Below, piece by piece: positions 16,873 to 39,455 of a stretch of 41,517 nucleotides of DNA. The translations under genes were made by a program, and so were the position numbers. The stretch is from a virus. How positions within the stretch are numbered: position 1 is the stretch's first letter; every line of letters starts with the position of its first letter. Below the pieces are notes generated by a model. It was given only the letters and a program-made list of their open reading frames with translations, ran no database searches and had not been told where the DNA came from. The stretch is from positions 1-41,517 of the IMG/VR virus record IMGVR_UViG_3300048589_000946. One strand, given 5' to 3'.

Positions 16873-16889
16873 CGTCGAACCCTCTCCCG

Positions 16890-18177: not shown

Positions 18178-18188
18178 CGTCCCCTCCC

Positions 18189-20758: not shown

Positions 20759-20791
20759 CTTGTCCTCACTTTCCGTACTTTGTTGTCGTTG

Positions 20792-20822: not shown

Positions 20823-20828
20823 TCTTCC

Positions 20829-23845: not shown

Positions 23846-24102
23846 CTCTCTGCCTCGTCTCTCTTGGTTGCTATTGGCGCGGCCGGGCCGCGCAGCATGG
23901 TGTAGAAGAACCGCCACTTGCCCCCGACCAGCCGGCGCTCGCAGGTGATCTCGGCCCCGTGGTGGCGCAGTTCCGCCACCACCGCGCTGATCGCCAGCAC
24001 ATGGGTGCGCCGCGCGATGTCCCGCGTCGTATGCGCCCGCCCGTCCGACAACAGCTCCAGCACCCGCTGCAACCGGTCCGATGTCAGCGGCGCCGCATGC
24101 AT
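23842..24102 (-). CDS. Small winged-helix early protein
   Basis: An 86-residue protein with a winged-helix pattern: 'TSDRLQRVLELLSDGRAHTTRDIARRTHVLAISAVVAELRHHGAEITCERR' and a wing 'GGKWRFFYTML'. Probably an early DNA-binding regulator. The ATG shares a base with the previous stop and the stop overlaps the ParB-like start by four bases. Confidence 0.65.
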   Translation of the reverse strand: MHAAPLTSDRLQRVLELLSDGRAHTTRDIARRTHVLAISAVVAELRHHGAEITCERRLVGGKWRFFYTMLRGPAAPIATKRDEAER

Positions 24103-24335
24103 CACGCGCTCCTCTGCCGGCAATGGTTGCACAGCCGGTGGTGCGGGCCTTCCGACAGGATTTCCGCCTCGCAGCACAGGCACTTGCGCCGCCGCACCTT
24201 CGCCGCCTTGGCCCGCGTCGCCGCGATCTCGTCGCGCCGCCGCTGCGTCGCAAACAGGCTGCCGATCCCGCTGATCGGCGTGTCGCCCTCGAACACCGCA
24301 TAGCCGTAACGGTAGGCTCTCACGCTCAGGGTCAT
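24102..24335 (-). CDS. Small zinc-finger early protein
   Basis: A 77-residue protein with a C-terminal zinc-ribbon: two CxxC-like pairs in KCLCCEAEIL and LCNHCRQRS, plus a basic helix before them (QRRRDEIAATRAKAAKVRRR). Likely nucleic-acid binding. Start and stop overlap neighbours. Confidence 0.6.
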   Translation of the reverse strand: MTLSVRAYRYGYAVFEGDTPISGIGSLFATQRRRDEIAATRAKAAKVRRRKCLCCEAEILSEGPHHRLCNHCRQRSA

Positions 24336-24565
24336 CCCGGCTGCCCCCCGTAAGTGGCCAGCAGGAACGCCCTGATCTCGGGGATTACCTCCGGCCGCGC
24401 CAGCAGATGCGACCAGGCGTCGAACACCTCGACCATCACATCCTCCAGCCGCGGCACCACCGCATCCATGGCGTCGGGATTGGCATGCGCCATCGCCAGC
24501 AGGGCACAACCCCGCGTCAGCGCCGCGTCGAGCGCCGCGAAGGCCGCTATCGGTGACCGGCTCAT
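24332..24565 (-). CDS. Small helical early protein, 77 residues
   Basis: A 77-residue protein starting MSRSPIAAFAALDAALTRGC and containing 'LEDVMVEVFDAWSHLLARPEVIPEIRAFLLATYGG'. Helical throughout. Coupled to both neighbours. No family recognised. Confidence 0.55.
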   Translation of the reverse strand: MSRSPIAAFAALDAALTRGCALLAMAHANPDAMDAVVPRLEDVMVEVFDAWSHLLARPEVIPEIRAFLLATYGGQPG

Positions 24566-24789
24566 GACAGCACCGCCGCGACAATCGCCATCCCGCCAAC
24601 CAATGCCACCAGCAGCGCCGCAGCCCCGATCGCATCGCCCAGCAGGCTCTGCTCCAGCCGCTGCCAGCCGGTATCGCCGCCGTCATGCACCGGCGCGGAC
24701 GCGTCCTCGTCGAAGGCCAGCCGCACCACCTCGCCGACGATCCTCGGATCATCGGCGCGGGCCGGGGGAACGATACGGGTTTCCATCAT
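24562..24789 (-). CDS. Small membrane-anchored early protein
   Basis: A 75-residue protein with a polar N-terminal half and one C-terminal membrane helix (IGAAALLVALVGGMAIVAAV). AGGAG lies five bases before this ATG and eight before the next in-frame ATG at 24786; either may be used. A tail-anchored early phage protein; function unknown. Confidence 0.55.
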   Translation of the reverse strand: MMETRIVPPARADDPRIVGEVVRLAFDEDASAPVHDGGDTGWQRLEQSLLGDAIGAAALLVALVGGMAIVAAVLS

Positions 24790-24995
24790 CCGCACTCCTG
24801 CTCGAACCGCGCCCGCACCAGGTCATGCGCCACCAGCGCCGCCACCCGTTCCAGCCGTGTCAGGTGAAAGGCGCAGTCCGGGTCGGTGATGTCGCGCACC
24901 AGCTCGATCGCGAACGCGATCCGCTGCGCCTGGCTCAGCCCGGCACAGGCCGCGCGGGCCATCGCCACACCGGCGGGAATGGGATTATCGGCCAT
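24786..24995 (-). CDS. Small early phage protein, first gene of the transposition operon
   Basis: A 69-residue helical protein starting MADNPIPAGVAMARAACAGL. A very strong AAGGAGG lies a few bases upstream, which fixes the start. It appears to be the first gene of the operon that leads to the transposase, so its promoter should lie in 24996-25160, divergent from the plus-strand pair. Confidence 0.6.
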   Translation of the reverse strand: MADNPIPAGVAMARAACAGLSQAQRIAFAIELVRDITDPDCAFHLTRLERVAALVAHDLVRARFEQECG

Positions 24996-25061
24996 TATTC
25001 GGCCTCCTTTGTCCTGAACTGACGGGGAAATGTGGGGGCGGGTCATGCCGCGCGCCCCACT

Positions 25062-25089
25062 TTGAACGCCACGCAAACCCTGCTATCCT
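25062..25089 (+). promoter_or_regulatory. Sigma-70-like promoter for the plus-strand pair
   Basis: TTGAAC and TATCCT separated by 16 bases, about 80 bases upstream of the 55-residue gene. This would let the plus-strand pair be expressed in the lysogen independently of phage early transcription. Confidence 0.5.
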
Positions 25090-25166
25090 GTTGGCACCGG
25101 AGGGCGTCGTACCGCCCCCCGGCGCCTGTCATCCCCAAGTGCAACAACCACCCGAGGACAATACCG

Positions 25167-25334
25167 ATGAGCAAGAAGACCGACGAAACGGAGATCGCGC
25201 GCGGCATCCGCAAACCCGACCAGGCCATTGAAATCCTGTCGATGGGTCCGCGCCAGCCAGAGACATCCGTTGGCCCCAGACAACCCGTTCCGGCCGCACC
25301 GGCAAAACCGGCGCCGCCACCGAAGAAAGGCTGA
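25167..25334 (+). CDS. Small proline-rich protein preceding a two-TM protein
   Basis: A 55-residue protein starting MSKKTDETEIARGIRKPDQA and ending in a Pro/Ala/Lys run (PAAPAKPAPPPKKG). GAGGA lies nine bases before the ATG. It is eight bases upstream of the two-TM gene, so both form one plus-strand operon opposite to the phage early genes. No family recognised. Confidence 0.55.
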   Translation: MSKKTDETEIARGIRKPDQAIEILSMGPRQPETSVGPRQPVPAAPAKPAPPPKKG

Positions 25335-25342
25335 CCATACCC

Positions 25343-25897
25343 ATGACCGACCGGGAAAACATCCGCTTCAACGCCTTGCGCAATGCGCTCTACCACACCG
25401 CCCGGCGCAGATCGCTCGAACGGATGAACCGGGTCTTCAACTTCCTGATCATCCTGCTCGGCGCCGCCGCCGTCAGCGACCTGACGGCGCTGGTTGCAAC
25501 CGGCCATCTCTGGATCGGTGGTGCCGTCGCCGTGATCGGCGCCCTGCAACTGGTCTTCGACTTCGGGCGTCAGGCCCGCGATCACCAGACCCTGCAACGC
25601 GACTACTACGCCCTGCTGGCCGACATCGAGGCCAGCGCCGGCGACAGCCCCGACCTCTGCCGCGACTGGCAAAGCCGGATGATCCGCATCACCGCCGATG
25701 AACCGCCCGTCCTGCGCGCCATCGACGCCAAGGCCTACAACGACGCCCTCGATGCCCTCGCCACCTTCCCCGCCGGAGAACGCCTGCTGATCCCGTTTCA
25801 CCATCGCCTGCTCGGCGCCTGGTTGCCCTTCGAAGGCCATAGCTACCGCAAGGTCGCCGAGGCCCGCAGCCTCGCCGCGCCGGCCAGCCAGACCTGA
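25343..25897 (+). CDS. Two-TM protein, SLATT-like candidate
   Basis: A 184-residue protein with two adjacent membrane helices (FNFLIILLGAAAVSDLTALV and IGGAVAVIGALQLVFDF, residues about 34-80) followed by a cytosolic helical domain ('RDHQTLQRDYYALLADIEAS'). This order, basic helix then 2 TM then a helical domain with a conserved Tyr/Leu pattern, resembles SLATT-family effectors associated with nucleotide-signal and phage defence systems. No sensor or cyclase gene is adjacent, so it is either a solitary moron (superinfection exclusion or lysogenic conversion) or an unrelated membrane protein. It converges with the minus-strand gene at 25921. Confidence 0.6.
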   Translation: MTDRENIRFNALRNALYHTARRRSLERMNRVFNFLIILLGAAAVSDLTALVATGHLWIGGAVAVIGALQLVFDFGRQARDHQTLQRDYYALLADIEASAGDSPDLCRDWQSRMIRITADEPPVLRAIDAKAYNDALDALATFPAGERLLIPFHHRLLGAWLPFEGHSYRKVAEARSLAAPASQT

Positions 25898-25920
25898 TCC
25901 CACAGACGCGCCCGGCCCGG

Positions 25921-26289
25921 TCATGCCACGTCCTTCTTGTCGGAGGGGCGGGGGATCGACGGTGGCCAGGCGAGGTCGCTGGGCCATGTCTGATCGAAGA
26001 AGCGCATCAGCCGCTCCGCTGTGCGGATGTGGCAACCGGCACCCGGGCGAGTCAGTCTCTTGAAGAAATCGCCCTTGCCGAGCGCGCGCATGGATATGGC
26101 GAAATGCGTTACCCCCTGATGCGTGGCCAACGTCTCCGCCAGAGTGATGAGCGCGGCCTTCTGATCCATGGCAGCGCCACATTTGCTGGCCACTTCAGCT
26201 TCGAGCGGCAACGCTGGTGACACCGCCGGCGTCACCGCCAATGCCAGGTCCGGGCACAGCCACAAGGCAAGCTTTCGGCGCCAGTCCAT
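25921..26289 (-). CDS. Early DNA-binding protein, paralogue of its upstream neighbour
   Basis: A 122-residue protein starting MDWRRKLALWLCPDLALAV with a hydrophobic N-terminus, then an HTH-like helical region ('FAISMRALGKGDFFKRLTR' and 'TAERLMRFFDQTWP') and the ending DLAWPPSIPRPSDKKDVA. The last 75 residues align with the next upstream protein, including LITL near the start and WP-DL-WPPSIPRPS-KKD at the end, so the two arose by duplication. The start shares a base with the previous stop. Possibly a Cro/Ner-like regulator; the extra N-terminus may anchor it to the membrane. Confidence 0.6.
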   Translation of the reverse strand: MDWRRKLALWLCPDLALAVTPAVSPALPLEAEVASKCGAAMDQKAALITLAETLATHQGVTHFAISMRALGKGDFFKRLTRPGAGCHIRTAERLMRFFDQTWPSDLAWPPSIPRPSDKKDVA

Positions 26290-26531
26290 CAGGCGGCATC
26301 CTTCTTTCTGGAGGGTCGGGGGATCGACGGCGGCCAAACGAGGTCGTCAGGCCAATGAGCATCGAACCAGCGCAGCACCTGATTGTAGGTATCTACGCGG
26401 CACCCTTTGTTTTCGCGCAGGCGCGTTACCAGCCTCGCGTGGGCGCCTGTCCATTTGGCGACAGTGGTCTCCGACCGATCAACATGAGCGGCGTAACGTT
26501 CGAAGAGCGTGATGAGGTGTTCGTATTCCAT
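26289..26531 (-). CDS. Ner/Cro-like early regulator
   Basis: An 80-residue protein beginning MEYEHLITLFERYAAHVDRS, with an HTH-like core ('SETTVAKWTGAHARLVTRLREN', then 'TYNQVLRWFDAHWP') and the ending DLVWPPSIPRPSRKKDAA shared with the downstream paralogue. It is divergent from the repressor, the position of ner in Mu, so it probably shuts down early or repressor transcription. The ATG at 26531 has no clear ribosome site; a GTG at 26555 is an alternative but would run into the operator-like repeat. Confidence 0.65.
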   Translation of the reverse strand: MEYEHLITLFERYAAHVDRSETTVAKWTGAHARLVTRLRENKGCRVDTYNQVLRWFDAHWPDDLVWPPSIPRPSRKKDAA

Positions 26532-26537
26532 GCCGTC

Positions 26538-26606
26538 ATTATGGAAATTTTCCACCTGCCGTCAATGGTAATAATACACTTTTTCGAAACGGACAATTTC
26601 CATTAT
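26538..26606. promoter_or_regulatory. Repressor/early divergent promoter with paired operator-like repeats
   Basis: The AT-rich gap between the Ner-like gene and the repressor holds ATTATGGAAATT (26538-26549) and its near inverted copy AATTTCCATTAT (26595-26606), about 45 bases apart. TATTAT-like -10 boxes for the minus strand lie between. This is the expected operator region for the S24 repressor and Ner-like protein. Repeats are seen; binding is inferred. Confidence 0.55.
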
Positions 26607-26648
26607 TCGCCGCTTGTGCGGGCGGGTAGTTTGGTGCATTTTTAATCC

Positions 26649-27338
26649 ATGTACGACGCGGCTGAAATCTACGAACTTGTCGAGGCACGCCGTAGAGCGA
26701 TGGGCCTCACACAAGCGCAGGTCGGCCTTCTCGCGTTCGGGAAAGAGGACAACACCGCTATCCAGAGCCTCAAGAAGGGTTCATCCCCGGCAATGGATCG
26801 CATCGCTGAGATGGCTCGTGTTCTCGACTTGGAGCTTTATCTCGGCCCGCCACGCACCACGCCCCAGCTGGCCGAGATCGCCCTCGACGGCGAGGATTTC
26901 GCCGCCCTGCCGCTCCACGCCGCCCAGGCCTCGGCCGGGCCCGGCGCCGTCGATGGTGATGATGAGATTGTCCGCCACCTGCTGTTCCGCCGCACCTGGT
27001 TGCGCGACATCGGCGTCAGCCCCCGCGATGCCCGCCTGCTGCACGTCCGTGGCGACAGCATGCAGCCCGTCATCCACCATGGCGACATGGTGATGATCGA
27101 CACCTCGCGCACCGTGCCGCCCGTCGCCACCGGACGCCGCCGCAAACAGATGTACGTGCTGCGCGATCCCGACGACGGCATCCGCCTGAAATGGGTCGAA
27201 CGCCCCGAGGACAACAAGCTTGTCGTCTGGTCCGAGAACATCGCCGCCTACGGCCCCGAGGTGTTCCGCAAATCCGAACTCGGCGCCCTCGGCTTCATCG
27301 GCCAGGTCGTCTGGTGGGGCCACACCGTCAGGGACTGA
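26649..27338 (+). CDS. Phage repressor, HTH plus S24 (LexA-like) peptidase
   Basis: A 229-residue prophage repressor. N-terminal XRE-like HTH (residues about 8-60, 'YELVEARRRAMGLTQAQVGLLAFGKEDNTAIQSLKKG'), C-terminal S24 domain with Ser137 in RGDSMQP and Lys181 in GIRLKW forming the Ser/Lys dyad. It should keep the lytic operons silent and be inactivated by RecA-driven self-cleavage. No ribosome site precedes the ATG, which may be leaderless. It is transcribed toward the phage end, as c in Mu. Its 3' end is duplicated 752 bp downstream. Confidence 0.88.
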   Translation: MYDAAEIYELVEARRRAMGLTQAQVGLLAFGKEDNTAIQSLKKGSSPAMDRIAEMARVLDLELYLGPPRTTPQLAEIALDGEDFAALPLHAAQASAGPGAVDGDDEIVRHLLFRRTWLRDIGVSPRDARLLHVRGDSMQPVIHHGDMVMIDTSRTVPPVATGRRRKQMYVLRDPDDGIRLKWVERPEDNKLVVWSENIAAYGPEVFRKSELGALGFIGQVVWWGHTVRD

Positions 27339-27361
27339 CCGGCATCCGCATATAGAATGCC

Positions 27362-27391
27362 AGGACCGGCGCCTTGCAAGGCGCCGGTCCT
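27362..27391. terminator. Bidirectional hairpin after the repressor gene
   Basis: AGGACCGGCGCC and GGCGCCGGTCCT form a perfect 12-bp stem with a 6-base TTGCAA loop, between the convergent repressor and the 53-residue gene. No T-run, but the stem is strong and well placed to end both transcripts. Confidence 0.5.
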
Positions 27392-27407
27392 GTTGCTTCG
27401 AGCAAGC

Positions 27408-27569
27408 TCAGCCTTCCGCTGCCTTCGCCAGTTCTTCATCGGCCAATCGCGCGGCCCTCTCAATTTCCGGCTGCAATTCCTCAACAAGGTCAGCGGGCAG
27501 CCAAGCCGCGACGTATCGCAGCCCGGCCCTTTCGAGAATGCGCGCCTTGCGGGGGCGGGTCAGGGTCAT
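27408..27569 (-). CDS. Small protein of the repressor-adjacent cassette, 53 residues
   Basis: A 53-residue protein starting MTLTRPRKARILERAGLRYV and containing 'VAAWLPADLVEELQPEIERAARLADEELAKAAEG'. The N-terminal basic part plus 'VAAWLPADLVEEL' faintly resembles ribbon-helix-helix proteins. The ATG overlaps the stop of the 97-residue gene by four bases, so the two are a unit. It could be an antitoxin-like or autoregulatory partner; unproven. Confidence 0.5.
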   Translation of the reverse strand: MTLTRPRKARILERAGLRYVAAWLPADLVEELQPEIERAARLADEELAKAAEG

Positions 27570-27859
27570 TGAAGCTCTCCACCCATGACCTTCCATTCAA
27601 TGTACTGGAAGACAGTCCCGGCGCTGTCATTGTCCATCCCGCTTTCCCATCCGTCCGGCACATCGCCAAACGCATCCCACGGCTCGTCGGTGTATTCCTC
27701 GCCTTCCGGCTTGCAGTCATCGGGGTACGCGACGGTCAGCATCACATAGCCGTCGCCATCCTCGTCAGTCTCGGACTTGACGCTCCAACCCCAGTCGTCA
27801 TGCGACGGCAAAGCTGCAATTCGGGCGTTCAGTACTTCGATCAGGCTGTCGGTGGTCAT
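27566..27859 (-). CDS. Acidic small protein of the repressor-adjacent cassette, 97 residues
   Basis: A 97-residue, strongly acidic protein (starts MTTDSLIEVLNARIAALPSH; contains 'ETDEDGDGYVMLTVAYPDDCKPEGEEYTDEPWDAFGDVPDGWESGMDNDS'). AGGAG lies about ten bases before the ATG, and a 71-bp inverted repeat lies 36 bases upstream. Small, acidic and in an insertion next to the repressor, it has the profile of DNA-mimic or anti-defence proteins, but no family is recognised. Confidence 0.55.
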   Translation of the reverse strand: MTTDSLIEVLNARIAALPSHDDWGWSVKSETDEDGDGYVMLTVAYPDDCKPEGEEYTDEPWDAFGDVPDGWESGMDNDSAGTVFQYIEWKVMGGELQ

Positions 27860-27895
27860 TTTCTCTACTCCTGGTGGGCTGAACCCATTTCCGCC

Positions 27896-27966
27896 CTACA
27901 GTGTTACGTTACGCGTAACGACGCGCCATTGCAACAACAATCGTAACGCGTAACGTAACACTGTAG
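27896..27966. repeat. 71-bp inverted repeat with 26-bp arms upstream of the small cassette
   Basis: Left arm 27896-27921 and right arm 27941-27966 begin CTACAGTGTTACGTTACGCG and match at 25 of 26 positions, around a 19-base loop. Each arm contains repeated GTTACG/CGTAAC units, the left one a perfect GTTACGCGTAAC palindrome. Its place just upstream of the minus-strand two-gene cassette suggests an operator bound by a dimeric regulator at several sites, or a recombination site. Confidence 0.65.
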
Positions 27967-28022
27967 GCTCAACATCGCCTCGCCAGTCTTGGCGGCATCC
28001 CGCCTTTCTAAAATGCTCCGCT

Positions 28023-28096
28023 AATCCGTACTCGGCGCCCTCGGCTCCGTCGGCCAGGTGGTCTGGTGGGGCCACACCGTCAGGGATTGACCGGCA
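28023..28096 (+). pseudogene. Second copy of the repressor 3' end
   Basis: About 74 bp match the repressor's end (27271-27344) with roughly five differences and the same reading: SVLGALGSVGQVVWWGHTVRD and stop. The two copies are exactly 752 bp apart and flank the small cassette. The rest of the gene is missing here. This is a remnant left when the cassette was inserted, or of an exchanged repressor allele. Confidence 0.75.
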
Positions 28097-28510
28097 GGTT
28101 TCGCCGGGCTTTGAAGCGGGTACCTTGCCCCTTTCAACACCCCCTTGAAACGCCCTTCAACGCCCCTTCGCCAGTTCCTACCTCAACCCCTCGCCGGAAC
28201 CGCCGGTTTTGACCTAAGTCTTTGTCTGCATTGCGGTATTCCGAGGTAGGAACAAAACCGCCAAACCGCGTTTTCAGTTCCCACCTCAAAACCGCCCCAC
28301 CATTGATTTCATTACCTTTTCCATTTCGCCCCTCCCGCGAAATCGCCCTCCGGCCACCGCCCTGCGAAAAGAATGTGGCAGTACCGCCCGCGCCGCCAAA
28401 ACCCGCCGCGCCGTCATTCGCCATATAAACAAGGCGTTTCGCCAAGCCGGATTAACCGCCACCTACCGCCGTCTTCCGGCCCGCACTGCCATCATTACCT
28501 TCGCTTTACA
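28097..28510. promoter_or_regulatory. Predicted phage end with transposase-binding-like repeats
   Basis: No gene is seen. CAGTTCCTACCTCAA (28172-28186) recurs with one change as CAGTTCCCACCTCAA (28275-28289), and GTTCCTACCTC occurs inverted at 28243-28253. TCATTACCTT occurs at 28309-28318 and 28492-28501. The last copy is followed by CGCTTTACA, so on the minus strand the phage would begin 5'-TGTAAAGCG at 28510, fitting the 5'-TG..CA-3' rule of Mu-like ends. The flanking CGTTG (28511-28515) would be the 5-bp target duplication. Confidence 0.5.
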
Positions 28511-28715
28511 CGTTGGTTGAAACCATATGGAGGCTGGCATGTTGCTCAGCGTGATGGGGATTTGCGGCCCCGATACCGCATACTTTTTCGTCCAACTGGC
28601 GTATCAGACCGCGTTCGAAGGCCGTGATGGCTTCGGGCGCTTTTTTGTGTTCCGGCAGTTGCTGATCCGTTATGTGTGGATTGGTGGCGATCTGATCGAA
28701 ATCGTTTTCGATCAT
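28506..28715 (-). pseudogene. Gene fragment probably cut by phage insertion
   Basis: An open frame with coding-like codon choice (mostly C or G in third position) reading MIENDFDQIATNPHITDQQL and 'PEAITAFERGLIRQLDEKV', ending only because the presumed phage terminus supplies a TAA. The upstream start is not certain. I do not recognise the family. If real, its 3' part should lie on the far side of the prophage. Confidence 0.35.
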
Positions 28716-28824
28716 CTGGAAGTGTTCGTCGCGTAAGGCGATCTTGCGTGTCCGGGTTGTCCGGGCACGCGTCCAACCTGAAACGCGGCCGAAAAGTGGC
28801 TGCACAAACTTAGGACAGTATATC

Positions 28825-30639
28825 ATGACTATCGAAGCAAAGATTGAAACCCCGAAATCTGATCTCGACAAGCAGAAAGCTTATGCCGAGAGCCTTTCGG
28901 CAAAAGGTTTCAAGTATACTTTCGCTGTTGGGACGGCCTTTGTCGAAAGTATGCGAAACACTCACTACAAACACACCGGTACGGCACTCGACGAGCTGAT
29001 TGACAACTCCATCGAAGCTGGAGCCTCGCAAGTGGGCATAGCGCTTGGGTATAGTGGCAAGAGCACCGCTACGCCCGACGCACTTGCCGTGATCGATGAT
29101 GGTCATGGCATGCCTAAAGGAATGTTGCAGCCAGCGGCCGCTTGGGGTGGCACTCATCGTCACAATGAAGAGAACCGGAGTGGCTTCGGACGCTTTGGTT
29201 TCGGCTTGCCTAGCGCGTCCGTTAACCAAGCTCGTCGCTACTCGATTTTCTCGATCACCGAGGACGGAAACTGGCGGTCTCTTACCGTTGATCTCGATGA
29301 CATCGCTGCAGGAAAATATACGGACAACACGGATACCGTGCGCATGCCCGAAGAAGTAGAGGGCACCGAACCACCGAAATGGGTCATGGAACATATTGCG
29401 GAACACATGCCCGGCGGCAAACTCACGCACGGAACCATCGTGTTGTGGGAAAAAATGGATCGGATCAAGTGGAAGACCACAAAGGGGATGCGCGACAACC
29501 TCCTGCAGCACTTCGGGGTGATGTTTCGGAACTACCTCCAGCAAGTCGGTCTAAAGTTTGATGGCACCTCTATAGAGCCGCTTGACCCACTCTTCCTCAC
29601 GCCCGGTTTCCGCTACTTCGATGAAGACGAAGATCGTGCGAAAGCGTTGGAGCCAGCCGAAATTGAAGTGAAATCCAAGCGCAACCCAGACAAGAAGGTC
29701 AAGATCGCCATCCGTTATGCACTGTTTCCGCATCGCTTCTTTTCTCGGGACAAGGAGAAAGATGCTCAGCACGGGAACTCCAATAACCGTTTCAAGGTAG
29801 CGAATGATCATCGTGGCGTCATTGTGTGCCGTATGGGGCGCCAGATCGACGTGGTTGAGCGCACGCCTTGGCGGGGATTGGAAAAATTCCGTAACGATGA
29901 CCGCTATTGGGCGCTTGAAATCGACTTTCCAGCGGAGCTTGACGAAGAATTCACGATTGCGAATTCAAAGCAAGGCGTTGTCATGTCCGACCGGATCTGG
30001 GATTTGCTGCAGGACGCGGGCGTGGAGCGTGTCATTCGCACTCTACGTAAAGAGGTGTCTGCAATGCAGAAAGCTGATGCCTCTAAGCCCGAGGACCCCG
30101 AAAAAGATCGAGCCTCTGAGGCTTCGATGAAGGAAAGCGAGAAATTCCGCCGCACGCGCGCTGGTGGGACTTCGGCTGAGCGTGAAGCCAAGGCACGGGA
30201 GCAGTTCGAACAGTACGTCAAGCAGAAAGCGAAGGAGCAGAAACGCCCTGAGGAGACGGTTCGCAACGAGGCGAAGGAAGAGGAAGCGAAGCATCCGTAT
30301 AAGGTGGAGTTCGCGAGTCACCCAAATGCCCCATTCTACAGGGTCATTCAGCGCGGCGCGATGAAGGTGCTCGAAATCAATATGGCACACCGTTTCTATA
30401 CCGACCTTTATGCGTCGGCTGCCGCGAACCGGTTTCTGCGCCCTGGCCTTGAGGTGATGCTTTTCTCGGTGGGCGAAGCTGAACTCGATGCCCTGGGCAA
30501 TCAGGACAAGTCCAACTTCTATCACGTGGAAAAGATTGCATGGTCTGAAAGATTGGAAGTCGCCCTCGACGTTCTGCATCGCTTCGGTCACGACGAAGAT
30601 GTTGTGGACAGCGAAGACGACAACATCGCGGCAGAATAA
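28825..30639 (+). CDS. GHKL (MORC/MutL/Hsp90-like) ATPase, candidate defence protein
   Basis: A 604-residue protein with a full GHKL ATPase core: ALDELIDNSIEA (N-box, residues 54-65), DDGHGMP (91-97) and FGRFGFGLPS (121-130), then the usual transducer part (about 200-400, with IANSKQGV). A highly charged coiled-coil linker follows (about 414-490), then a conserved-looking C-terminal domain. Such ATPases clamp on DNA or drive conformational switches and occur in several phage-defence loci. AGGA lies nine bases before the ATG. The gene is visibly more AT-rich than the phage genes and is 63 bp upstream of the DruA-like gene in the same direction, so the two form one unit. Confidence 0.85.
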   Translation: MTIEAKIETPKSDLDKQKAYAESLSAKGFKYTFAVGTAFVESMRNTHYKHTGTALDELIDNSIEAGASQVGIALGYSGKSTATPDALAVIDDGHGMPKGMLQPAAAWGGTHRHNEENRSGFGRFGFGLPSASVNQARRYSIFSITEDGNWRSLTVDLDDIAAGKYTDNTDTVRMPEEVEGTEPPKWVMEHIAEHMPGGKLTHGTIVLWEKMDRIKWKTTKGMRDNLLQHFGVMFRNYLQQVGLKFDGTSIEPLDPLFLTPGFRYFDEDEDRAKALEPAEIEVKSKRNPDKKVKIAIRYALFPHRFFSRDKEKDAQHGNSNNRFKVANDHRGVIVCRMGRQIDVVERTPWRGLEKFRNDDRYWALEIDFPAELDEEFTIANSKQGVVMSDRIWDLLQDAGVERVIRTLRKEVSAMQKADASKPEDPEKDRASEASMKESEKFRRTRAGGTSAEREAKAREQFEQYVKQKAKEQKRPEETVRNEAKEEEAKHPYKVEFASHPNAPFYRVIQRGAMKVLEINMAHRFYTDLYASAAANRFLRPGLEVMLFSVGEAELDALGNQDKSNFYHVEKIAWSERLEVALDVLHRFGHDEDVVDSEDDNIAAE

Positions 30640-30660
30640 GTTTTCTTTCAATTTGCAGCG

Positions 30661-30680
30661 CGGGCCATTTAGGTGGCCCG
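30661..30680. terminator. Hairpin between the GHKL and DruA-like genes
   Basis: CGGGCCA and TGGCCCG form a 7-bp stem with a 6-base loop, 21 bases after the GHKL stop. No T-run follows. It may protect mRNA ends or lower expression of the second gene. Confidence 0.35.
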
Positions 30681-30702
30681 TGCACTCTGTTATGAACGCC
30701 AC

Positions 30703-32835
30703 ATGAAAAATCAAGAAAAAACCAATGCCTTGATCTACTTCTTCCCTTCGAAGATATCTGAAGGAGGAAGGAAACGTATCCAACAGAAAGTTGAAGACAC
30801 TAAGAATATTGATTTCGAGGAGAGGGCAAGCGAGTTCCGTCATTGCGCAGATGAATTCAGCATGCTTGCGACGGATACGGACGCATGTGGCAACCTGCGT
30901 ATGGCCGTAGCTTACTCAATTCTATCCGACCTTATCGCGCAAGGTTGGAAAATCGACTTTAACGATTTCGGAATTACTGTGGAGTCTGCCTCGTTTGCGC
31001 CACTTGAAGGCGAGACCGTTGATCACGCCAAAAAACGCATTCGGGCCGGCCTTCAAATTGCGAGTAATCGCCAACTTGGCGAGGCGTCGGTTCAAGATTT
31101 TATTGAGCGAATGGAGCGGGAACGACCCTTCAAAGGAAAGAAGGTGTCAATCCTTTCGTTGATTGATAATGGAGTGGACTTGGCGACTGCGCTGCAACAA
31201 GCGCAGAACACGCAAACGCGGGGTGCCCGAATAAACGCACTGGGAAAAATCGTTCGGCCTGTTTTGCAGGAGTGTGCTACCGATGCAAGGTGCGAGTTCA
31301 CTGGCCTCAAGCTTCAGGACATCTGGCGTTACTTTAGATACACGTGGTCTCTTGAGTATAATCCCCTGCCGGGGCGAACGCAGAGATTCCTATTGCGAAA
31401 CGGGGCGCGAAAAAACAACCCTGTCATAGGCATTGCCATGCTCGCAAGTCCAACTGCAAACTTGGGCAGCCGGGACAAATGGATCGGGTGGCAGATTGAT
31501 GCGCTTGCTCAGAAGATTATGGCTGGTGAGTACGAAGCGGCGCATGTGGGAAAACGCCTTCTAGTTGCACTTGAGAACGCGATAAAAGATATTCGCCACG
31601 ATGATCTGATCACAGACGATGAGATTGCACATCCGACATTTGACACTTTAATCCGCTTAGATCGTAGTGCCGCTGAGGGTGCCGCACAAAGAAAGCGAGA
31701 CTTATCTTCGGTGGAAGACAATGAGCCAATTGACATAAGAGGCTACAAGAAAGAGGAAATAGGCGACGACGAATGGCGACGCCTTTCAGAAACAGGGCTA
31801 TTCCGCAAAAAGAGGGCTGAACAACTAGCCCCCTTAATCAAAGCTATGCAAACTCTTGTCCAATTGGGGATACGGAAGGAGCCAGCGGCTGCTACTTATC
31901 TCGCATTCACCGATAAGGATGGGCAGAGCGCTGTTCGTATTGCACTCAATGAGATAAAGAAACGGCACCTAGCGACCGAGGTGGCTGACTTGGCTGTGTG
32001 TGGTGCAATCGCGCCTTATAATACTCTTCTTAGTGGAAAGCTGGTTGCGCTCGCGATGGCTTCACGCGAAGCACGAAAGCTTTATTGTAAACGGTATTCA
32101 AACCAAGTCAGTGAAATCGCATCCCAAATTGCAGGGCGCTCGATTGTGAGAAGTTCAGATCTTAAGCTAATCACCACTACCAGCCTATATGGTGTTGGTA
32201 GTAATCAGTATTCTAGTCTTGCACTGCGGCGCAAACGGTTTCAGCGCCTCAACGCTGATGTGGTCTGGAAAAAGCTGGAAAGCGGAACAGGTGTAAGCAT
32301 TACGCATTTGAGTGAGCAGACGGTGACGCTCATGCGCCAATTGGGTACTGCCGTCTATGGTCGTCGTAGGATCAATAGCGTTTTCGGCGAAGGTAGTAGT
32401 CCGCGGATGCGCCAGATTCGTGAGGGCCTAAACCTTTTAGGCATCAACGACGACTCTCTTTTGAAGCAGTCGCATGGGCGTAAAGTGTATGGATGTGAAC
32501 TATATGAAAATGCTAAAGATGATATGCTGGGATTTGGTGACCGATCCAAAAGGAGATCTTCGTCTTCACTTCGAAGCATCTCAAACTGCTGGATCGATCG
32601 CTGGCTAAGTCCACGGATCGACAAGCCAGGTATCTTGGAAGCAACAAAAAATCTCGGGCCGCATTCAATCAGTGAGAGTCTGAAGCTCCGTGCCGTTAAC
32701 GGCGGTCTCGTGGCTCAACCCTCACCAGTGGGTGAAGCAACCCGCTCCAAGACGCTGTCGATTAGCGACAGTAACTCGGCCGTGTCGAGCTCCTCGCCTG
32801 CTCTCAAGGATGCTGCGACGGTATCCAAAACATAG
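30703..32835 (+). CDS. DruA/DUF4338-like large protein, candidate defence protein
   Basis: A 710-residue protein. Residues about 190-265 carry the features I associate with DUF4338, the DruA family of Druantia systems: 'LQDIWRYFRYTWSLEYNPLPGR' (PGR at 223-225), FLLRNGA, VIGIAMLASP and RDKWIGW at 257-263. The second half keeps blocks such as 'KVYGCELYENAKDDML' and 'NCWIDRWLSPRIDKPGILEA'. No DruE-type helicase is nearby, so this is not canonical Druantia. An ATG at 30703 is used here; a GTG at 30673 falls in the hairpin. The last 40 residues overlap a minus-strand gene and look unstructured, so the natural C-terminus may have been altered. Confidence 0.7.
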   Translation: MKNQEKTNALIYFFPSKISEGGRKRIQQKVEDTKNIDFEERASEFRHCADEFSMLATDTDACGNLRMAVAYSILSDLIAQGWKIDFNDFGITVESASFAPLEGETVDHAKKRIRAGLQIASNRQLGEASVQDFIERMERERPFKGKKVSILSLIDNGVDLATALQQAQNTQTRGARINALGKIVRPVLQECATDARCEFTGLKLQDIWRYFRYTWSLEYNPLPGRTQRFLLRNGARKNNPVIGIAMLASPTANLGSRDKWIGWQIDALAQKIMAGEYEAAHVGKRLLVALENAIKDIRHDDLITDDEIAHPTFDTLIRLDRSAAEGAAQRKRDLSSVEDNEPIDIRGYKKEEIGDDEWRRLSETGLFRKKRAEQLAPLIKAMQTLVQLGIRKEPAAATYLAFTDKDGQSAVRIALNEIKKRHLATEVADLAVCGAIAPYNTLLSGKLVALAMASREARKLYCKRYSNQVSEIASQIAGRSIVRSSDLKLITTTSLYGVGSNQYSSLALRRKRFQRLNADVVWKKLESGTGVSITHLSEQTVTLMRQLGTAVYGRRRINSVFGEGSSPRMRQIREGLNLLGINDDSLLKQSHGRKVYGCELYENAKDDMLGFGDRSKRRSSSSLRSISNCWIDRWLSPRIDKPGILEATKNLGPHSISESLKLRAVNGGLVAQPSPVGEATRSKTLSISDSNSAVSSSSPALKDAATVSKT

Positions 32836-33071
32836 AGCATGTCTGGCGCGGCTCGAATGAGTGTAAGGCTCCTCTCGAAGCGATCTAGCTTGCTTCTGCT
32901 GCCCGAAATAATTGTCCCAACATGATAACCGCTCTGCGGGTCAATGCTGAATAGATTTTTTCGTGTGCTGGAAACGGTGTCCGTGATCTGCCATTTTCCG
33001 TAACTCTTCCGTGACGCATCCTTAGCAGGAGCAGGCGACAAAAGTCCTTTCGGTTTTTCAGGTTTTCTCAT
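32715..33071 (-). CDS. Hypothetical element protein, 118 residues
   Basis: A 118-residue protein with a basic, Lys/Pro-rich N-terminus, a middle beta part ('KWQITDTVSSTRKNLFSID') and a C-terminal helical part ('LIRAAPDMLYVLDTVAASL') of a type common in small phage and island proteins that carry 'LI-AAPDLL--L'. It overlaps the 3' end of the DruA-like gene by about 120 bp on the opposite strand. Four bases after the 79-residue gene, so the two are one operon. Confidence 0.55.
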   Translation of the reverse strand: MRKPEKPKGLLSPAPAKDASRKSYGKWQITDTVSSTRKNLFSIDPQSGYHVGTIISGSRSKLDRFERSLTLIRAAPDMLYVLDTVAASLRAGEELDTAELLSLIDSVLERVASPTGEG

Positions 33072-33075
33072 TGGT

Positions 33076-33315
33076 TCACTTGCTCTTTTTGCCTTGGTCT
33101 TCTGCTACTGGGGCACAATTGGAAAGAGCTTTTCTGGCTTCCTTCTCGGCTGCTGACCCCTTGACCCACTGCCACGGGGTGCGCGGCTTCCTTGCCTTCG
33201 CCAATTCGGGGTTCGCCTTGGCGTCGCTGGCAGCGGCACGTAGGCGTTCACGGGCCTCGCGCGGGTCGATCTTGAGTTCGTCGCAGATGGCCTTGAGCGT
33301 CACGATATCGGTCAT
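33076..33315 (-). CDS. Small basic element protein, 79 residues
   Basis: A 79-residue protein starting MTDIVTLKAICDELKIDPRE, with an HTH-like opening ('TLKAICDELKIDPREARERLR') and a basic, Lys-rich tail. TAGGAG lies upstream of the ATG. Possibly a small DNA-binding protein. It belongs to a two-gene minus-strand operon convergent with the defence cassette. Confidence 0.6.
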   Translation of the reverse strand: MTDIVTLKAICDELKIDPREARERLRAAASDAKANPELAKARKPRTPWQWVKGSAAEKEARKALSNCAPVAEDQGKKSK

Positions 33316-33629
33316 GTCGATCTCCTAAGTTGCTGATGAAGATCGATAAGACGAAGGCTGGCAGCGTGTCAGGGATAACCCCAGAACATCTTTAGCTTTT
33401 CTCGATCTGCAGCTATGACTGATCTCGACGCGGCAGACGCAGCCGTGTTGGGGCGTGGAAACCCCTCTCTGACTAGGCCGGGCAACCGGCTGAACACCTT
33501 TGACCTATGGTCGGGGTGCCTGTGTTATACAACAGGCCGCCCGGCTAAAGGCACAGGGTCCGTGTCAGAGCGGATTTCCAACACCCCGATCACCAGTCAA
33601 TTGCGAGGGCGCTCGCAGATCGGGGTTTG
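33316..33629. other. Intergenic stretch with weak promoter-like element
   Basis: No convincing gene. TTGACC at 33500-33505 and TTATAC at 33525-33530 (19-base spacing) are a weak promoter-like pair for the GIY-YIG gene, and GCCTGT/ACAGGC (33518-33537) forms a small hairpin over the -10. An open frame from 33415 has poor codon use and no ribosome site. Confidence 0.35.
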
Positions 33630-34010
33630 GTGGAACTGGTGCTGTCCCATCCCGTCGCGTGGACCGACCGTGCAAGCCTGCCTGACCGCGCAGGCGTGTA
33701 TCTGATCGGGCGTGGCGAACCGGGAAACACCGTCTACATCGGTCGGACATGGGGCGCGAAGGGAATACGCCACAGGATAAGGACGTTCCACAGGTCAGCG
33801 ACCACCGGGCAGAAAGGCCATGCCGGGGGCGTGACGTTCCACGGCGTGTTCGATGGCGACACGAGTGGTTTGTTCGTTTCGGTTCACCTGCCAGACGGCA
33901 TCGACCCCAAGCCGGACATCCTGCACCCCTACATCGCCTATGCCGAGCGACGGCTGATCTGGGAGCATGTCGAGGCGCATGGTGGGCTGCCGGTGTGCAA
34001 CTCGGAATGA
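33630..34010 (+). CDS. GIY-YIG domain protein
   Basis: A 126-residue protein with the GIY-YIG nuclease signature: AGVYLIG (GVY at residues 22-24), NTVYIGRT (YIG at 36-38) and a following basic helix GIRHRIRTFH. The C-terminal 'YIAYAERRLIWEHVEAHGGLPVCNSE' supplies a candidate catalytic Glu. Small GIY-YIG proteins are DNA nucleases in repair, homing and mobile elements. The start is uncertain: GTG at 33630 is given, no strong ribosome site is seen, and the frame stays open upstream. Confidence 0.65.
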   Translation: MELVLSHPVAWTDRASLPDRAGVYLIGRGEPGNTVYIGRTWGAKGIRHRIRTFHRSATTGQKGHAGGVTFHGVFDGDTSGLFVSVHLPDGIDPKPDILHPYIAYAERRLIWEHVEAHGGLPVCNSE

Positions 34011-34279
34011 CCTGCAACTAACCCCGAGCATCGAGAGCGAAACGCGCGCGCGGCGGCGTTGTGTTGAGCCAGCAGCGCCGGGGCGTGCTTCGCGCATGGT
34101 GACACCGTCGCAATCCCGGCTGGCGCGCTAACGGCGATCATCCCGGCATCTGCACGGACACGGCGCATCGGCACGGCTACCCCCTGTGGTCTCCCGCGAC
34201 GGAACGGGAATTACCCTGACGGGCGATGGTCGCCGATCTTATTGCGCTGGCATCGAAACCAACCAGCGAGGAAATCGGC
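34011..34279. other. Intergenic stretch, no gene seen
   Basis: GC-rich sequence between the GIY-YIG and small membrane protein genes. GAGGAAA near 34267 serves as ribosome site of the latter. Nothing else is supported. Confidence 0.3.
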
Positions 34280-34510
34280 ATGACGATCAAGGCAACATGG
34301 GCCTTCAACGGCCAGACGAAAACCATCTTGGGCAACTGGCACCGGCTGTGGTGCCTGCTGTTCGGCCCGTTCTACTACCTGTTCAAAGGCATGTTCTGGT
34401 GGGCGCTCTTGTCGCTGATCACGGCCAACGGCCTGTGGATCGGCTTCCCCCTGTTCAACCGCGCCATCGTGCTGCGCCATTACCATCGCAAGGGGTGGGT
34501 GCAAGAATGA
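34280..34510 (+). CDS. Small membrane protein, DUF2628-like
   Basis: A 76-residue protein with a polar start (MTIKATWAFNGQTKTILGN), a membrane segment rich in aromatic residues (LWCLLFGPFYYLFKGMFWWA) and a second hydrophobic stretch (LLSLITANGLWIGFPLF). The 'FGPFYYLFKGMFWWAL' block is like DUF2628, small inner-membrane proteins often carried on islands. GAGGAAA lies nine bases upstream of the ATG. Confidence 0.6.
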   Translation: MTIKATWAFNGQTKTILGNWHRLWCLLFGPFYYLFKGMFWWALLSLITANGLWIGFPLFNRAIVLRHYHRKGWVQE

Positions 34511-34904
34511 CCGCCCGAGCAGTTTGCCACCCGAGTGGAACCCGGCGCGCGATACCGAAACCTAGCGCGAATGCGGACTGCATGAAAAGGCACGACAATT
34601 CGGGTCCGGCTCGCATCCGACAGACTGATAGATAGTCAACGGGTCGCTCCGAGGAGTTCCGCGCGGCGCTGTCACAGGGAAACCACAGGGGGGATGGGGG
34701 AGGCGTTTTTTTATCGGCGCGTGCTCTGTGGACGGACAAGGGATCATACATACTGCCGAGATTTTCGGCCCCTAGCCGATTTCAAGACCGTCAAGAACGC
34801 CAAGGCCGTCATGCATGTTCGTGACGATGTTGAGGGAGCAAAGTGCGCCAACAAACACGATGGCGCTGTTGGCGTTCTTGGCGCACTTCATATCCTACCT
34901 GTGG
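34511..34904. other. Intergenic stretch with nested inverted repeats
   Basis: No gene is seen in 394 bp. CAAGAACGCCAA (34792-34803) pairs with TTGGCGTTCTTG (34869-34880), and AAGTGCGCCAA (34841-34851) pairs with TTGGCGCACTT (34878-34888). The two pairings share bases and exclude each other. The block lies just after the RepA-like stop and may act as terminator, replication origin part or operator. Confidence 0.5.
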
Positions 34905-35891
34905 TCATTCTTCGTCTGGCAGCGACAGCACCCAGCTTTTGCCCTTCTTCTTCGACACCACGCCCAAGGATCGCCGGGCGCGTTCCAGCGTCTTCTCGGA
35001 AATGTCGCGCGCGGCTGCCTCCTTCTCGACCTTGGTCGTTGCCTGTGGCCCATTCTTGAGGAACACGCGCAGGAACTGGATCGCCTCGTCGAGCGCCGAC
35101 ATCTTGGGCGTGCCACCCTCGGACGAAATCAGGTCATCGATGGTGATGTCTGACGGCCCCAGCCAGTTCAACGTCGCCATGCCCCCGTCATCGGCGTAAA
35201 TCTCGTAGCTCTGGGTCTGACCGCGCTTCGCGATGTTGTGCTTGATGTGAACCACCAGCTTGGTCGAACTGTCGTTCGGATGTTCGCACACCAGAAACGC
35301 CGACCGCGCCGCGCCGATCACGTCCATGGACCCACCACCCCGATAGATGGCCTTGTCGTGCTTGGCCTTGGTCAGGTGTCGGACGATCAGCACGGCCGTC
35401 TCGCCGGTTTCGGCGATGTCCTTGAGGAACGACAAAAGCTGCCGGATCACGTTCGGCTTATACATGTCCTGCCCACTGGGCACGTAAGCGAACAAGGGGT
35501 CGAGGATCAGCAGGTCCGGTGGCTTGCGCCTCACCTCCCGCATGAGGGCGTTTAACCCCTTCTCGTCGAGGGACAGGAAATCGCCCTGCACGCGGATGCG
35601 CGTCGGGTCGCCTCCCATCGCATCGATGCGCGGCCTGATCGTGTAGGCTGCGTCATCCTCGGCGCTGAGGTATAGCACCCGGCCGCGATCCAGCTTTTGC
35701 CCCTCGGGCAGTTCGCCACCGATGCTGATTTGCGCGGCTAGCTGCATGGCGAGGAACGACTTACCCACGCCAGGGTCGCCCTCCATAATCGTTATCATGC
35801 TGAACGGGATGAACGGCTCCCACAGCCATTCGACCTCCTTCGCATCGATGGTGTTTAGATCGACGAACAAATCCTTTTTCTTGGAGGTCAT
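34905..35891 (-). CDS. RepA-like AAA/RecA-fold ATPase (replicative helicase type)
   Basis: A 328-residue ATPase with Walker A GDPGVGKS at residues 38-45, 'VLYLSAEDD' and Walker B 'DLLILDPLFAYVPSG', followed by 'VLIVRHLTKAKHDKAIYRGGGSMD'. This is the AAA_25/RepA layout of plasmid RSF1010 and of many satellite elements. The last 80 residues form a winged-helix-like tail. It overlaps the primase stop by four bases, so helicase and primase are made together and should start replication of the excised element. Confidence 0.85.
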   Translation of the reverse strand: MTSKKKDLFVDLNTIDAKEVEWLWEPFIPFSMITIMEGDPGVGKSFLAMQLAAQISIGGELPEGQKLDRGRVLYLSAEDDAAYTIRPRIDAMGGDPTRIRVQGDFLSLDEKGLNALMREVRRKPPDLLILDPLFAYVPSGQDMYKPNVIRQLLSFLKDIAETGETAVLIVRHLTKAKHDKAIYRGGGSMDVIGAARSAFLVCEHPNDSSTKLVVHIKHNIAKRGQTQSYEIYADDGGMATLNWLGPSDITIDDLISSEGGTPKMSALDEAIQFLRVFLKNGPQATTKVEKEAAARDISEKTLERARRSLGVVSKKKGKSWVLSLPDEE

Positions 35892-36841
35892 TGCGCTGCC
35901 TCCAATTTTGCAATGATGCGCGATACCTCAATTTCCAGCGCGTTCTGGTCATCGCCGTATTTGTCTCTGAAGTATGGGCTGGACCAGATGACGCTGGCGA
36001 TCTCGTCGAGCGTCGCTCCGGCTTCGTGCAGACCCGCAATCATTGCGTATCGCCGTGCAGATCGATCATCGGCCAACACCTTATTGTGCCTGATTAGATG
36101 GCGCGTGGAGGTGTCGAGTTTCGAGCGGTATTTCTTCAGGACAGCGAGCCGATCATGCGAATGCGGGTTCATGTCCATCGCCTCGGGTTCAGCGTGTTGG
36201 ATGCCCGGCAAAATTTCCGGGCGCTCGGACGTCTTGCGCCAGTTGCGTGAAGCCAGCCGAATGATCGGCTCATCATACTTGGGCTTGTGATTGATGGAGC
36301 CGGGGATGCGCAGCATTTTCGTGATCGACCAGCCGTTATCGCCACCGTGCCGCGCAGCCAACGCACGGGAAAACGCCTCGGCCTCGCTGACATCGTAGCG
36401 CGCATCCCAGAGCCAGAGGGCTTGGAAACGACCGGGCGATGTCTCCCACACATGGTTGGGCTGTGGTCTGTAGGCGTCGGGGTCGCTGTCGTCCATGTCG
36501 CACCAGCCCAACCGGGATCGCAGGGCGAACGCCCTTCTTCGACCGGCGCGCGAAAACGGGTTCGGGCAGAAATAGAGGTTGTAATCCCAGCGCGAATGCG
36601 CCCGGAAAAACCTATTTAGCCCCACGATCATCTTGTCGGCACTGATCGCATGTTCGCGCCACCGTTCACCATCTGGGTCGGACGTGGCGACGAAGAGGAA
36701 GCTGTCCTTCGCCGCGCCCGTCCAAATATCGTGGAGAAAGCCCACCATGCTCTGGTGGATAGCGAAATCGTCGTCGTAGTTCTTGAACGCATAGGGGTGC
36801 CCGAAAAGCGGGCGACGTTGTGCTTTCACGCTGGAAGGCAT
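35888..36841 (-). CDS. RepB-like DNA primase
   Basis: A 317-residue protein of the RepB primase family (archaeo-eukaryotic primase fold). Active-site signs are LGWCDMDDSD (acidic metal ligands), 'VWETSPGRFQALWLWD' and 'RIPGSINHKPKY' with the catalytic His region. The C-terminal 130 residues are helical. AAAGGA precedes the ATG. Together with the RepA-like ATPase it forms the replication module of the element. Confidence 0.85.
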   Translation of the reverse strand: MPSSVKAQRRPLFGHPYAFKNYDDDFAIHQSMVGFLHDIWTGAAKDSFLFVATSDPDGERWREHAISADKMIVGLNRFFRAHSRWDYNLYFCPNPFSRAGRRRAFALRSRLGWCDMDDSDPDAYRPQPNHVWETSPGRFQALWLWDARYDVSEAEAFSRALAARHGGDNGWSITKMLRIPGSINHKPKYDEPIIRLASRNWRKTSERPEILPGIQHAEPEAMDMNPHSHDRLAVLKKYRSKLDTSTRHLIRHNKVLADDRSARRYAMIAGLHEAGATLDEIASVIWSSPYFRDKYGDDQNALEIEVSRIIAKLEAAQ

Positions 36842-36903
36842 GTTTTGTCCTTTCGGAAATCTGAGAGGGGTGGCAGGGCGCTTATCGCCCCACCGAATTG
36901 TTA

Positions 36904-37110
36904 TCAGCAGTCGCAGGTCGATCTTTGGGGACGGATGCCGGTGACAAGCTCAAGCCAGTCGTCAACCTCGTCCGCGTCCCACATGAGAGGCGAGACACGA
37001 CGAGGGAACTTACCTTGGGCTTCGAGAACCTTGAGGTGATCAGGGCTATTCAAGACGCCAAGTTCTACGAGGCACTTGGGGCAGTAACCCCTTTTCATGA
37101 TGATCTTCAT
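36904..37110 (-). CDS. AlpA-like regulator/excisionase, second copy
   Basis: A 68-residue protein with the AlpA/MerR-like winged pattern: 'YCPKCLVELGVLNSPDHLKVLEAQGKFPRRVSPLMWDADEVDDWL'. A Cys pair (CPKC) and a Cys-rich end (STCDC) are unusual for AlpA and might bind metal. It follows the first AlpA-like gene by seven bases and precedes the primase gene by 62 bases. Likely role: activating integrase or replication genes, or acting as excisionase. Confidence 0.75.
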   Translation of the reverse strand: MKIIMKRGYCPKCLVELGVLNSPDHLKVLEAQGKFPRRVSPLMWDADEVDDWLELVTGIRPQRSTCDC

Positions 37111-37117
37111 GGCTGGT

Positions 37118-37345
37118 TCATCCCGCGTCTGCGTAATGCGTGCGGGCACGCTCGGCAGCGCGTTCATCGAGCCAGTCTTCGATCTCGGACAGGAACCACG
37201 CAACGCTGGTCCCGGCCATCCTGATCCGCCGAGGGAAGCGTCCATGGGCCTCCCAGCGCAGCAGGGTCGTATTGCTTACATTGATGCCAAGGCGCTTGAG
37301 GTCAGCGCGCGTAGCCAAGGTCTTGCGACTGTCGTCGATTTTCAT
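37118..37345 (-). CDS. AlpA-like regulator/excisionase, first copy
   Basis: A 75-residue protein of the AlpA family: 'LATRADLKRLGINVSNTTLLRWEAHGRFPRRIRMAGTSVAWFLSEIEDWL'. GGAGGA precedes the ATG. In P4-like elements AlpA-type proteins control excision and the lytic switch. Being first in the leftward operon it is the likely main switch; the second copy may have a different target. Confidence 0.85.
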   Translation of the reverse strand: MKIDDSRKTLATRADLKRLGINVSNTTLLRWEAHGRFPRRIRMAGTSVAWFLSEIEDWLDERAAERARTHYADAG

Positions 37346-37440
37346 GATGGTCCTCCATCCGTTAGATGAAGGGGTCGACCCCAAGGGGTGCATGCAGACT
37401 CAGGTTAGCAGGGGCGAAGCAACTGTGCGCGGGACACAAA

Positions 37441-37986
37441 TCAGGTGTTTTCGTCCCAAATCCCATCAGACTGAACGCCGAGGCTTTCGAGCAATTCGAG
37501 AATAATTATGATTGTTCTGGTGCGCGGCGCATCGGGATCGAACAGAGACTCGATCTCGGCCATTTCCTTTGTAGTGAATTGTGTCCGTGCTTTCCGGCGC
37601 AGCCGATGCTCGACGGTATCAGGCGCAACGTTTTCACTTGTTCCAGCCAAATCTGAGAAGTGCCGCGCAGCCTCCCGAACTTTCATCGGCTCGCGTGCGA
37701 TTTCAGCTTCCCACTCGGGCGATTGCAGCCTCGCGTCTTTCTTCGCGATGCCCCTTCGCATCCCATCGAGTTCGCGTTTGCGCACTTCGTCGAAGAGCTT
37801 GAACAATGCCAGATCGTCGAATGCATCTGTCCGCCCACGGCCACGTTTTTCGCCAAATAAGGCCTCGCGGGCCGTCGCTAAGCGGTCTGCTTCACTTTTG
37901 CCTTTGGGATGGTCGTATGCGCGAATGATGCTGAGAAGCAGGAGGTCAACCTGACGCTTGCGCAATTTCGGTTTCGGTGGCGTCAT
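37441..37986 (-). CDS. Hypothetical element protein overlapping the integrase gene
   Basis: A 181-residue basic protein starting MTPPKPKLRKRQVDLLLLSI, helical, with 'DAFDDLALFKLFDEVRKRELDGMRRGIAKKDARL' and 'FTTKEMAEIESLFD'. It overlaps the integrase 3' end by 41 bp in the same direction. No family recognised; perhaps an element-specific regulator or DNA-binding protein. Confidence 0.6.
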   Translation of the reverse strand: MTPPKPKLRKRQVDLLLLSIIRAYDHPKGKSEADRLATAREALFGEKRGRGRTDAFDDLALFKLFDEVRKRELDGMRRGIAKKDARLQSPEWEAEIAREPMKVREAARHFSDLAGTSENVAPDTVEHRLRRKARTQFTTKEMAEIESLFDPDAPRTRTIIIILELLESLGVQSDGIWDENT

Positions 37987-39145: not shown

Positions 39146-39410
39146 AAGCCCATGATAAGATGGGCGGATGAGCCGCGTCAGGGACAACCCTAGAGGGTTT
39201 GTAGGCTTTTGGATCAACCTGCGCTGGATCGAGATACCCGTGTGGGCTTCGGCGTCCTCGGGTATCACTGGGGTAGCAGGAACGGTGAGCTTGAATGCTC
39301 CGGCGTGAGACGGATCGAGACGATCTGCCATGCGCAAAGATCAAGGTTTTCAAACGTCTACGTTACAGATTGAGCGATCCTGAGACAGCGCGCATGGATC
39401 AACAGGCCAA
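39146..39410. other. Integrase leader and attachment flank
   Basis: No gene is seen. The segment between the integrase start and the tRNA-Phe fragment should hold the integrase promoter and arm-type binding sites, but no clear repeats stand out by eye. Confidence 0.35.
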
Positions 39411-39455
39411 TTGAAAATCCTCGTGTCGGTGGTTCAATTCCGCCCCCGGGCACCA
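39411..39455 (+). other. Attachment site: 3' part of a tRNA-Phe gene
   Basis: The 45 bases run from the anticodon loop (TTGAAAA, anticodon GAA) through the T arm (GGTGG, TTCAATT, CCGCC) to the acceptor CCCGGGC and ACCA. Matching 5' sequences (GCCCGGG acceptor, D arm, 5' anticodon stem) are absent upstream, so this is a truncated copy created by integration. It marks the right end of the element with the 37946-39145 integrase and the left end of the next one. Confidence 0.85.

Follow-up and report, generated by a model that had tools for sequence, protein, structure and literature searches.

The stretch of DNA analysed here, referred to as the window, comprises 41,517 nucleotides of an IMG/VR virus record (IMGVR_UViG_3300048589_000946), and contains, outside its phage genes, two adjacent genes encoding a GHKL ATPase and a long-form DruA (DUF4338) protein. 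The ATPase gene (28825..30639, plus strand, ATG at 28825) encodes 604 residues and the druA gene (30703..32835, plus strand, ATG at 30703) encodes 710 residues, of which the last ~40 are disordered; a gap of 63 bp separates the stop codon of the former from the start codon of the latter. The GHKL protein has intact ATPase motifs (N-box ELIDNSIEAGA, DDGHGMP and GFGRFGFGLPS), an S5-like middle part, a coiled linker and a C-terminal domain, and the DruA protein contains the blocks PGR, VIGIAMLASP and RDKWIGW. Both genes are AT-rich, with a GC fraction of ~0.50–0.55 as compared with 0.60–0.70 in their surroundings. Open reading frames (ORFs), motifs and base composition agree with the original prediction for this DNA, which had described a complete GHKL ATPase core followed by a 710-residue protein as a candidate undescribed, compact defence unit on a tRNA-inserted, satellite-like element.

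The GHKL protein matches the Pfam family HATPase_c_3 (E-value 9e-17) and, weakly and with its N-terminal part only, the MzaB and MutL models. The ATPase motif columns are invariant or nearly so across the aligned relatives. A Foldseek search with its predicted structure (predicted local distance difference test score, pLDDT, 86.5) returned MORC2, MORC3 and MORC4 among the best solved matches, and a profile search placed MORC2 first (E-value 2e-15), in line with the MORC/MutL-like character that had been proposed for the ATPase. Like MORC proteins, the window protein combines the GHKL motifs with an S5 domain. The MORC S5 signature GhXhhpXXRhl (PMC2292703) is approached by the segment GVIVCRMGRQI, which by eye is off at one position (Q for h), and for this reason the name paraMORC-like seems to fit the window ATPase better.

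The second protein, suspected earlier to be DruA, is confirmed as such by profile: it matches the PADLOC model DruA1 (PDLC00001) with 618 bits (E-value 3.8e-186), residues 58–668 aligning to the 675-position model, and Pfam DruA with an E-value of 6.3e-28. Its predicted model (ma231b5daf2e0) is confident, with a pLDDT of 87.9 and a predicted template modelling score (pTM) of 0.87. The structure search returned a phage GNAT protein at low significance, so that the structural hints for GNAT are weak. DruA may nonetheless be a GNAT-type transferase, as others proposed for DUF4338; a reported fusion of DUF4338 to DndF was read there as containing a GNAT domain (PMC10853773). The model also matches the uncharacterised predicted Faunusvirus protein A0A3G4ZXG3 (E-value 2e-8), and giant viruses may, as far as predicted models indicate, carry DruA-like proteins.

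The GHKL ATPase and long DruA form a conserved, co-diverging and near-obligate gene pair. A DruA alignment, which took no account of the ATPase, was used to scan a collection of 84,980 species genomes (genome_contigs), and 80 loci were kept. A GHKL gene lies directly upstream of long druA in 67 of the 75 loci with at least 1.5 kb of upstream sequence; leaving out loci with Ssp genes, the proportion is 64/66, distributed over nine phyla, a conserved pairing such as the original prediction required. The GHKL and DruA protein distances are correlated (Mantel r 0.927 for 59 loci, a value reached by 0 of 2000 permutations), to which shared descent of the whole loci contributes. The ratio of nonsynonymous to synonymous substitution rates within the near clade is 0.03–0.05 for the GHKL gene and 0.09–0.12 for druA, and because this reflects strong purifying selection, the two ORFs are not chance products. 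Related pairs occur on plasmids and virus-like contigs. Single-sequence scans of viral sequences with GHKL or DruA found nothing, the phage records yielded no DruA match and only weak GHKL matches, and the cassette DNA did not match any plasmid. The DruA family is rare in the order, since only four of the 391 genomes searched contain it. A second, related GHKL gene (~600–680 residues) joins the pair in loci L003, L004, L023, L027, L028, L030, L031, L033, L038 and L040, and also in L048, L054, L064, L067, L082, L086, L088, L090 and L091.

Among pair loci flanked by 8 kb or more on both sides, DruE is present within the locus in 25 of 43, often together with DruD and a protein of ~975 residues; NERD-helicase genes also adjoin relatives of the pair. 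In L040 and L052 the gene order is GHKL – DruA – ~975 residues – DruD1 – DruE1. This order parallels that of a Nitrosococcus plasmid with a short DruA (DruA – 955 residues – DruD1 – DruE1), the 955-residue protein being 39% identical to the 975-residue one, and to judge from this parallel the GHKL ATPase and long DruA stand in the place of the type I short DruA. The ~955–980-residue protein between DruA and DruD (L040:12161–15088, L052:11872–14814, L159:7134–10001) has no PADLOC or Pfam match, and may represent DruB/DruC in intact form or a substitute for them.

The closest known system is Druantia type I (Doron et al. 2018; PADLOC DruA1–DruE1), which is made up of DruA, DruE and three proteins that have no annotated domains (PMC7251935); the nuclease of the type I DruE is predicted to be inactivated (PMC12458937). 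The window DruA belongs to the same DUF4338 family, and many relatives of the pair carry DruD1, DruE1 and the ~975-residue homolog of the protein in the short-DruA locus. Unlike type I, the pair has a long DruA and a dedicated GHKL ATPase, and the window clade has neither DruD nor DruE nearby. Since these two components were not found with it, the pair is best filed as related to, but not a member of, Druantia type I as defined. The PADLOC comparison recognises DruA1, but no Druantia model matched the GHKL protein (for DruB/DruC, no match at E ≤ 1), and its N-terminal MzaB match of 89.6 bits is far below the cut-off of 850 bits, which sets it apart from the MZA system. Neither PADLOC nor the literature searched, outside which lie most subscription journals and all supplements, describes a GHKL partner of DruA, and a prior description is possible; no paper in that literature mentions GHKL or MORC alongside Druantia, or HATPase alongside DruA, and a paper on YprA helicases mentions neither GHKL, HATPase nor MutL. 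The claim of an undescribed system may hold for the pairing itself, but not for an isolated novelty, because the relatives are mostly the front end of DruE loci, often with DruD, and so relatives of Druantia type I.

Three other groups of systems show partial likeness. Prokaryotic MORC/paraMORC proteins, as covered in the available part of Iyer et al. 2008 (PMC2292703), and MzaB are likewise GHKL and S5 ATPases in defence-type loci, often with superfamily 2 helicases, the former in restriction loci; DruA partners are not described in that part, and the MORC signature is not strictly matched here. In the DndFGH/SspFGH systems with DUF4338 (Rakesh et al. 2024, PMC10853773) the likeness lies in long DruAs that precede, or are fused to, SspF/G/H-like proteins in several phyla, but those loci mostly lack a GHKL gene, and SspF, SspG and SspH were not matched in the window or in L010–L015. 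DruA is fused to an SspF-like domain in a single protein of ~1190–1310 residues in L044, L045, L085, L092 and L093, and the haloarchaeal plasmids L005, L006 and L008 have long DruA, SspF/G/H-like genes, a divergent DruE-like helicase and a weak DruD-like protein in one locus. Druantia type III (PMC13192584, PMC13316683) is, within the Druantia group, another compact defence unit of two genes; it comprises DruH and the helicase-nuclease DruE, whereas the window pair is without DruE.

The window DruA and those of L010–L015 form one clade of seven loci (Shimodaira–Hasegawa-like approximate likelihood ratio test value of 99 in a quick tree). No DruE was found among the window ORFs or in the clade loci, of which L011–L013 end short downstream, and DruD was not matched within the L010–L015 loci, to which that search was confined. 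In a whole-genome search the genomes of L010, L013 and L014 gave no DruE. As far as seen, the window clade thus appears to be helicase-free. In a wider search, 14 of 24 pair-carrying genomes, six of them titled as isolates, had no DruE-like match at 1e-10. The DruB1 model matched none of five genomes, and no control either. A compact unit without DruE, as originally proposed, is represented by this clade, but most of the well-flanked relatives do have DruE. All seven clade loci share a convergent ORF of 118 residues (32715..33071 in the window, minus strand), which shares 121 bp with the 3′ end of druA and lies at the same place in each.

MORC and MutL ATPases dimerise upon ATP binding and clamp DNA. 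On balance, we consider it probable that the two genes form a Druantia type I-related defence module, directed against invaders and operating without DruE, in which a MORC-like clamp would cooperate with DruA as effector. The identity of the module is assigned with considerable confidence, and the predicted defence role is likely; the division into clamp and effector, as detailed here, is doubtful. According to this scheme, the ATPase would bind invading DNA and, like MORC and MutL proteins, close upon it as a dimeric clamp that depends on ATP, thereby marking or trapping the DNA. It would then recruit or license DruA, the constant component and presumed effector, and hand the DNA over. In the larger loci DruE would add DNA unwinding, helping rather than executing, while in the window clade the pair would act alone. 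More tentatively, the GHKL ATPase and long DruA may constitute a self-sufficient, unlisted core defence module to which lineages add DruE and DruD, such that DruE would be an accessory in this branch of Druantia.

Several observations weigh against a helicase-independent module with DruA as effector. Foldseek found no solved structural relative of DruA in the PDB at E ≤ 0.001. A GNAT assignment of DruA was not confirmed by profile–profile comparison with 30 GNAT domains from four genomes (probability <1%, as against 99.8% for a split-half GNAT control), and no nuclease was recognised in either protein of the pair. Within the clade itself, a full-length DruE is encoded ~22 kb away from DruA on the contig of L015; elsewhere in their genomes, L011 and L012 carry only more distant helicases of the DruE family. 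Finally, the genomes are drafts, and a missing DruE may fall in a gap.

The occurrence of DruE near the pair in those 25 of 43 well-flanked relatives, its presence elsewhere in several genomes that lack it beside the pair, and the L015 locus are all in agreement with the possibility that the pair is a remnant or split Druantia, i.e., the sensor or front half of a DruE system from which the helicase has disappeared in this lineage, and which works only with DruE in trans, or not at all. We regard this as unlikely, though it deserves to be taken seriously. Both genes are under strong purifying selection and have intact motifs, the whole clade shares the shortened layout and its own conserved 118-residue gene, and three clade genomes are without any DruE.

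In the MORC-like ATPase, long-form DruA gains a constant partner with a known kind of chemistry, and this branch of Druantia also occurs, as far as seen, in the absence of the helicase that is its hallmark. The data suggest that a near-obligate component escapes the detection models now in use. With only two genes and ~4 kb, the unit lends itself to expression and dissection far better than a multi-gene Druantia that includes a helicase of 2000 residues. The role of DruA, for which the literature searched offers no more than an unknown function or, as DUF4338, a proposed GNAT domain, thereby becomes directly testable.

From position 28511 onwards, the window is ~90% collinear with Maritimibacter sp. 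HL-12 (L010), where the counterpart is an island of ~11.3 kb flanked by direct repeats of 46 bp; the first repeat is the 3′ end of tRNA-Phe(GAA), and the copy of window 28511–33071 lies at L010 7724–12400. The part of this integrative island present in the window (28511..39455) is collinear with L010 except for a divergent stretch at 36190–36866, and ends in the distal attachment repeat (39410..39455), which has one mismatch to the L010 repeat; no tRNA gene was found in the window, only the 3′ repeat being present. Pfam scans identify on the minus strand of the island a tyrosine integrase (37946..39337), a RepB-type primase (35888..36841) and an AAA_25 ATPase (34905..35891), the latter belonging to the replication module. 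With a tRNA attachment site, an integrase and a replication module, the island has features by which phage satellites are recognised, but no packaging or capsid genes were matched on it (Pfam for the main ORFs, PHROGs for one ORF, Pfam and PADLOC for two small ORFs). The predicted insertion at a tRNA is corroborated by the L010 repeats, while the satellite character is not shown. A 127-residue ORF (33627–34010, plus strand) resembles a GIY-YIG nuclease by eye (GVYLIGRGE...VYIGRT) and has no Pfam match. A second tyrosine integrase (39670–40890, plus strand) lies just past the attachment repeat, and perhaps belongs to another element adjoining the island.

The location of the pair on an integrative island that encodes a primase and an integrase, together with the related pairs on plasmids and virus-like contigs, is compatible with a role in element biology rather than cell defence, in which the pair would manage DNA topology, replication or the exclusion of competing elements for its island. 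This is rather improbable, as relatives of the pair adjoin DruE, DruD and NERD-helicase genes and, with different DNA downstream of it in L011 and L013, the cassette is not bound to a single element. Least probable, and in our opinion very unlikely, is a several-gene unit in which DruA/GHKL is a toxin acting by abortive infection and the convergent 118-residue protein is its antitoxin or regulator: the ORF is kept at its convergent place in 7/7 loci and its codon changes, concentrated at third positions outside the druA overlap, favour its reading frame, but the protein has no family match (Pfam, PADLOC) and relatives outside the window clade do without it.

The remainder of the window, upstream of the island, is a separate Mu-like prophage (1..28510) that lies outside the system, on the 5′ side of the cassette. 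It contains genes for a transposase (733 residues), terminase, portal, protease and minor head proteins (PHROGs), and also for a ParB-like protein and an S24 repressor; its other end lies beyond the window. At the breakpoint 28510/28511 the window diverges exactly, while L010–L013 stay alike for ~85 bp further upstream. From this alignment, the prophage therefore appears to have entered the island at a point ~315 bp before the ATPase start codon; the same comparison, in which four relatives continue and only the window diverges, led to rejection of 28511 as the left end of the cassette itself.

This breakpoint, the convergent 118-residue ORF and a likely 69-residue ORF upstream of the ATPase gene (28527..28736, plus strand) are additions to the original prediction. 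The start, stop and length of the 69-residue ORF are kept in five loci, and the evidence that it is coding is moderate. A minus-strand gene at 28546–28776 was considered and rejected, since the pattern of codon changes agrees better with the plus frame. L041 (7600–7959) and L042 (6513–7208) have, immediately before the ATPase gene, a small gene resembling sigma-70 region 4, and related ORFs are located upstream in L014, L015 and L086.

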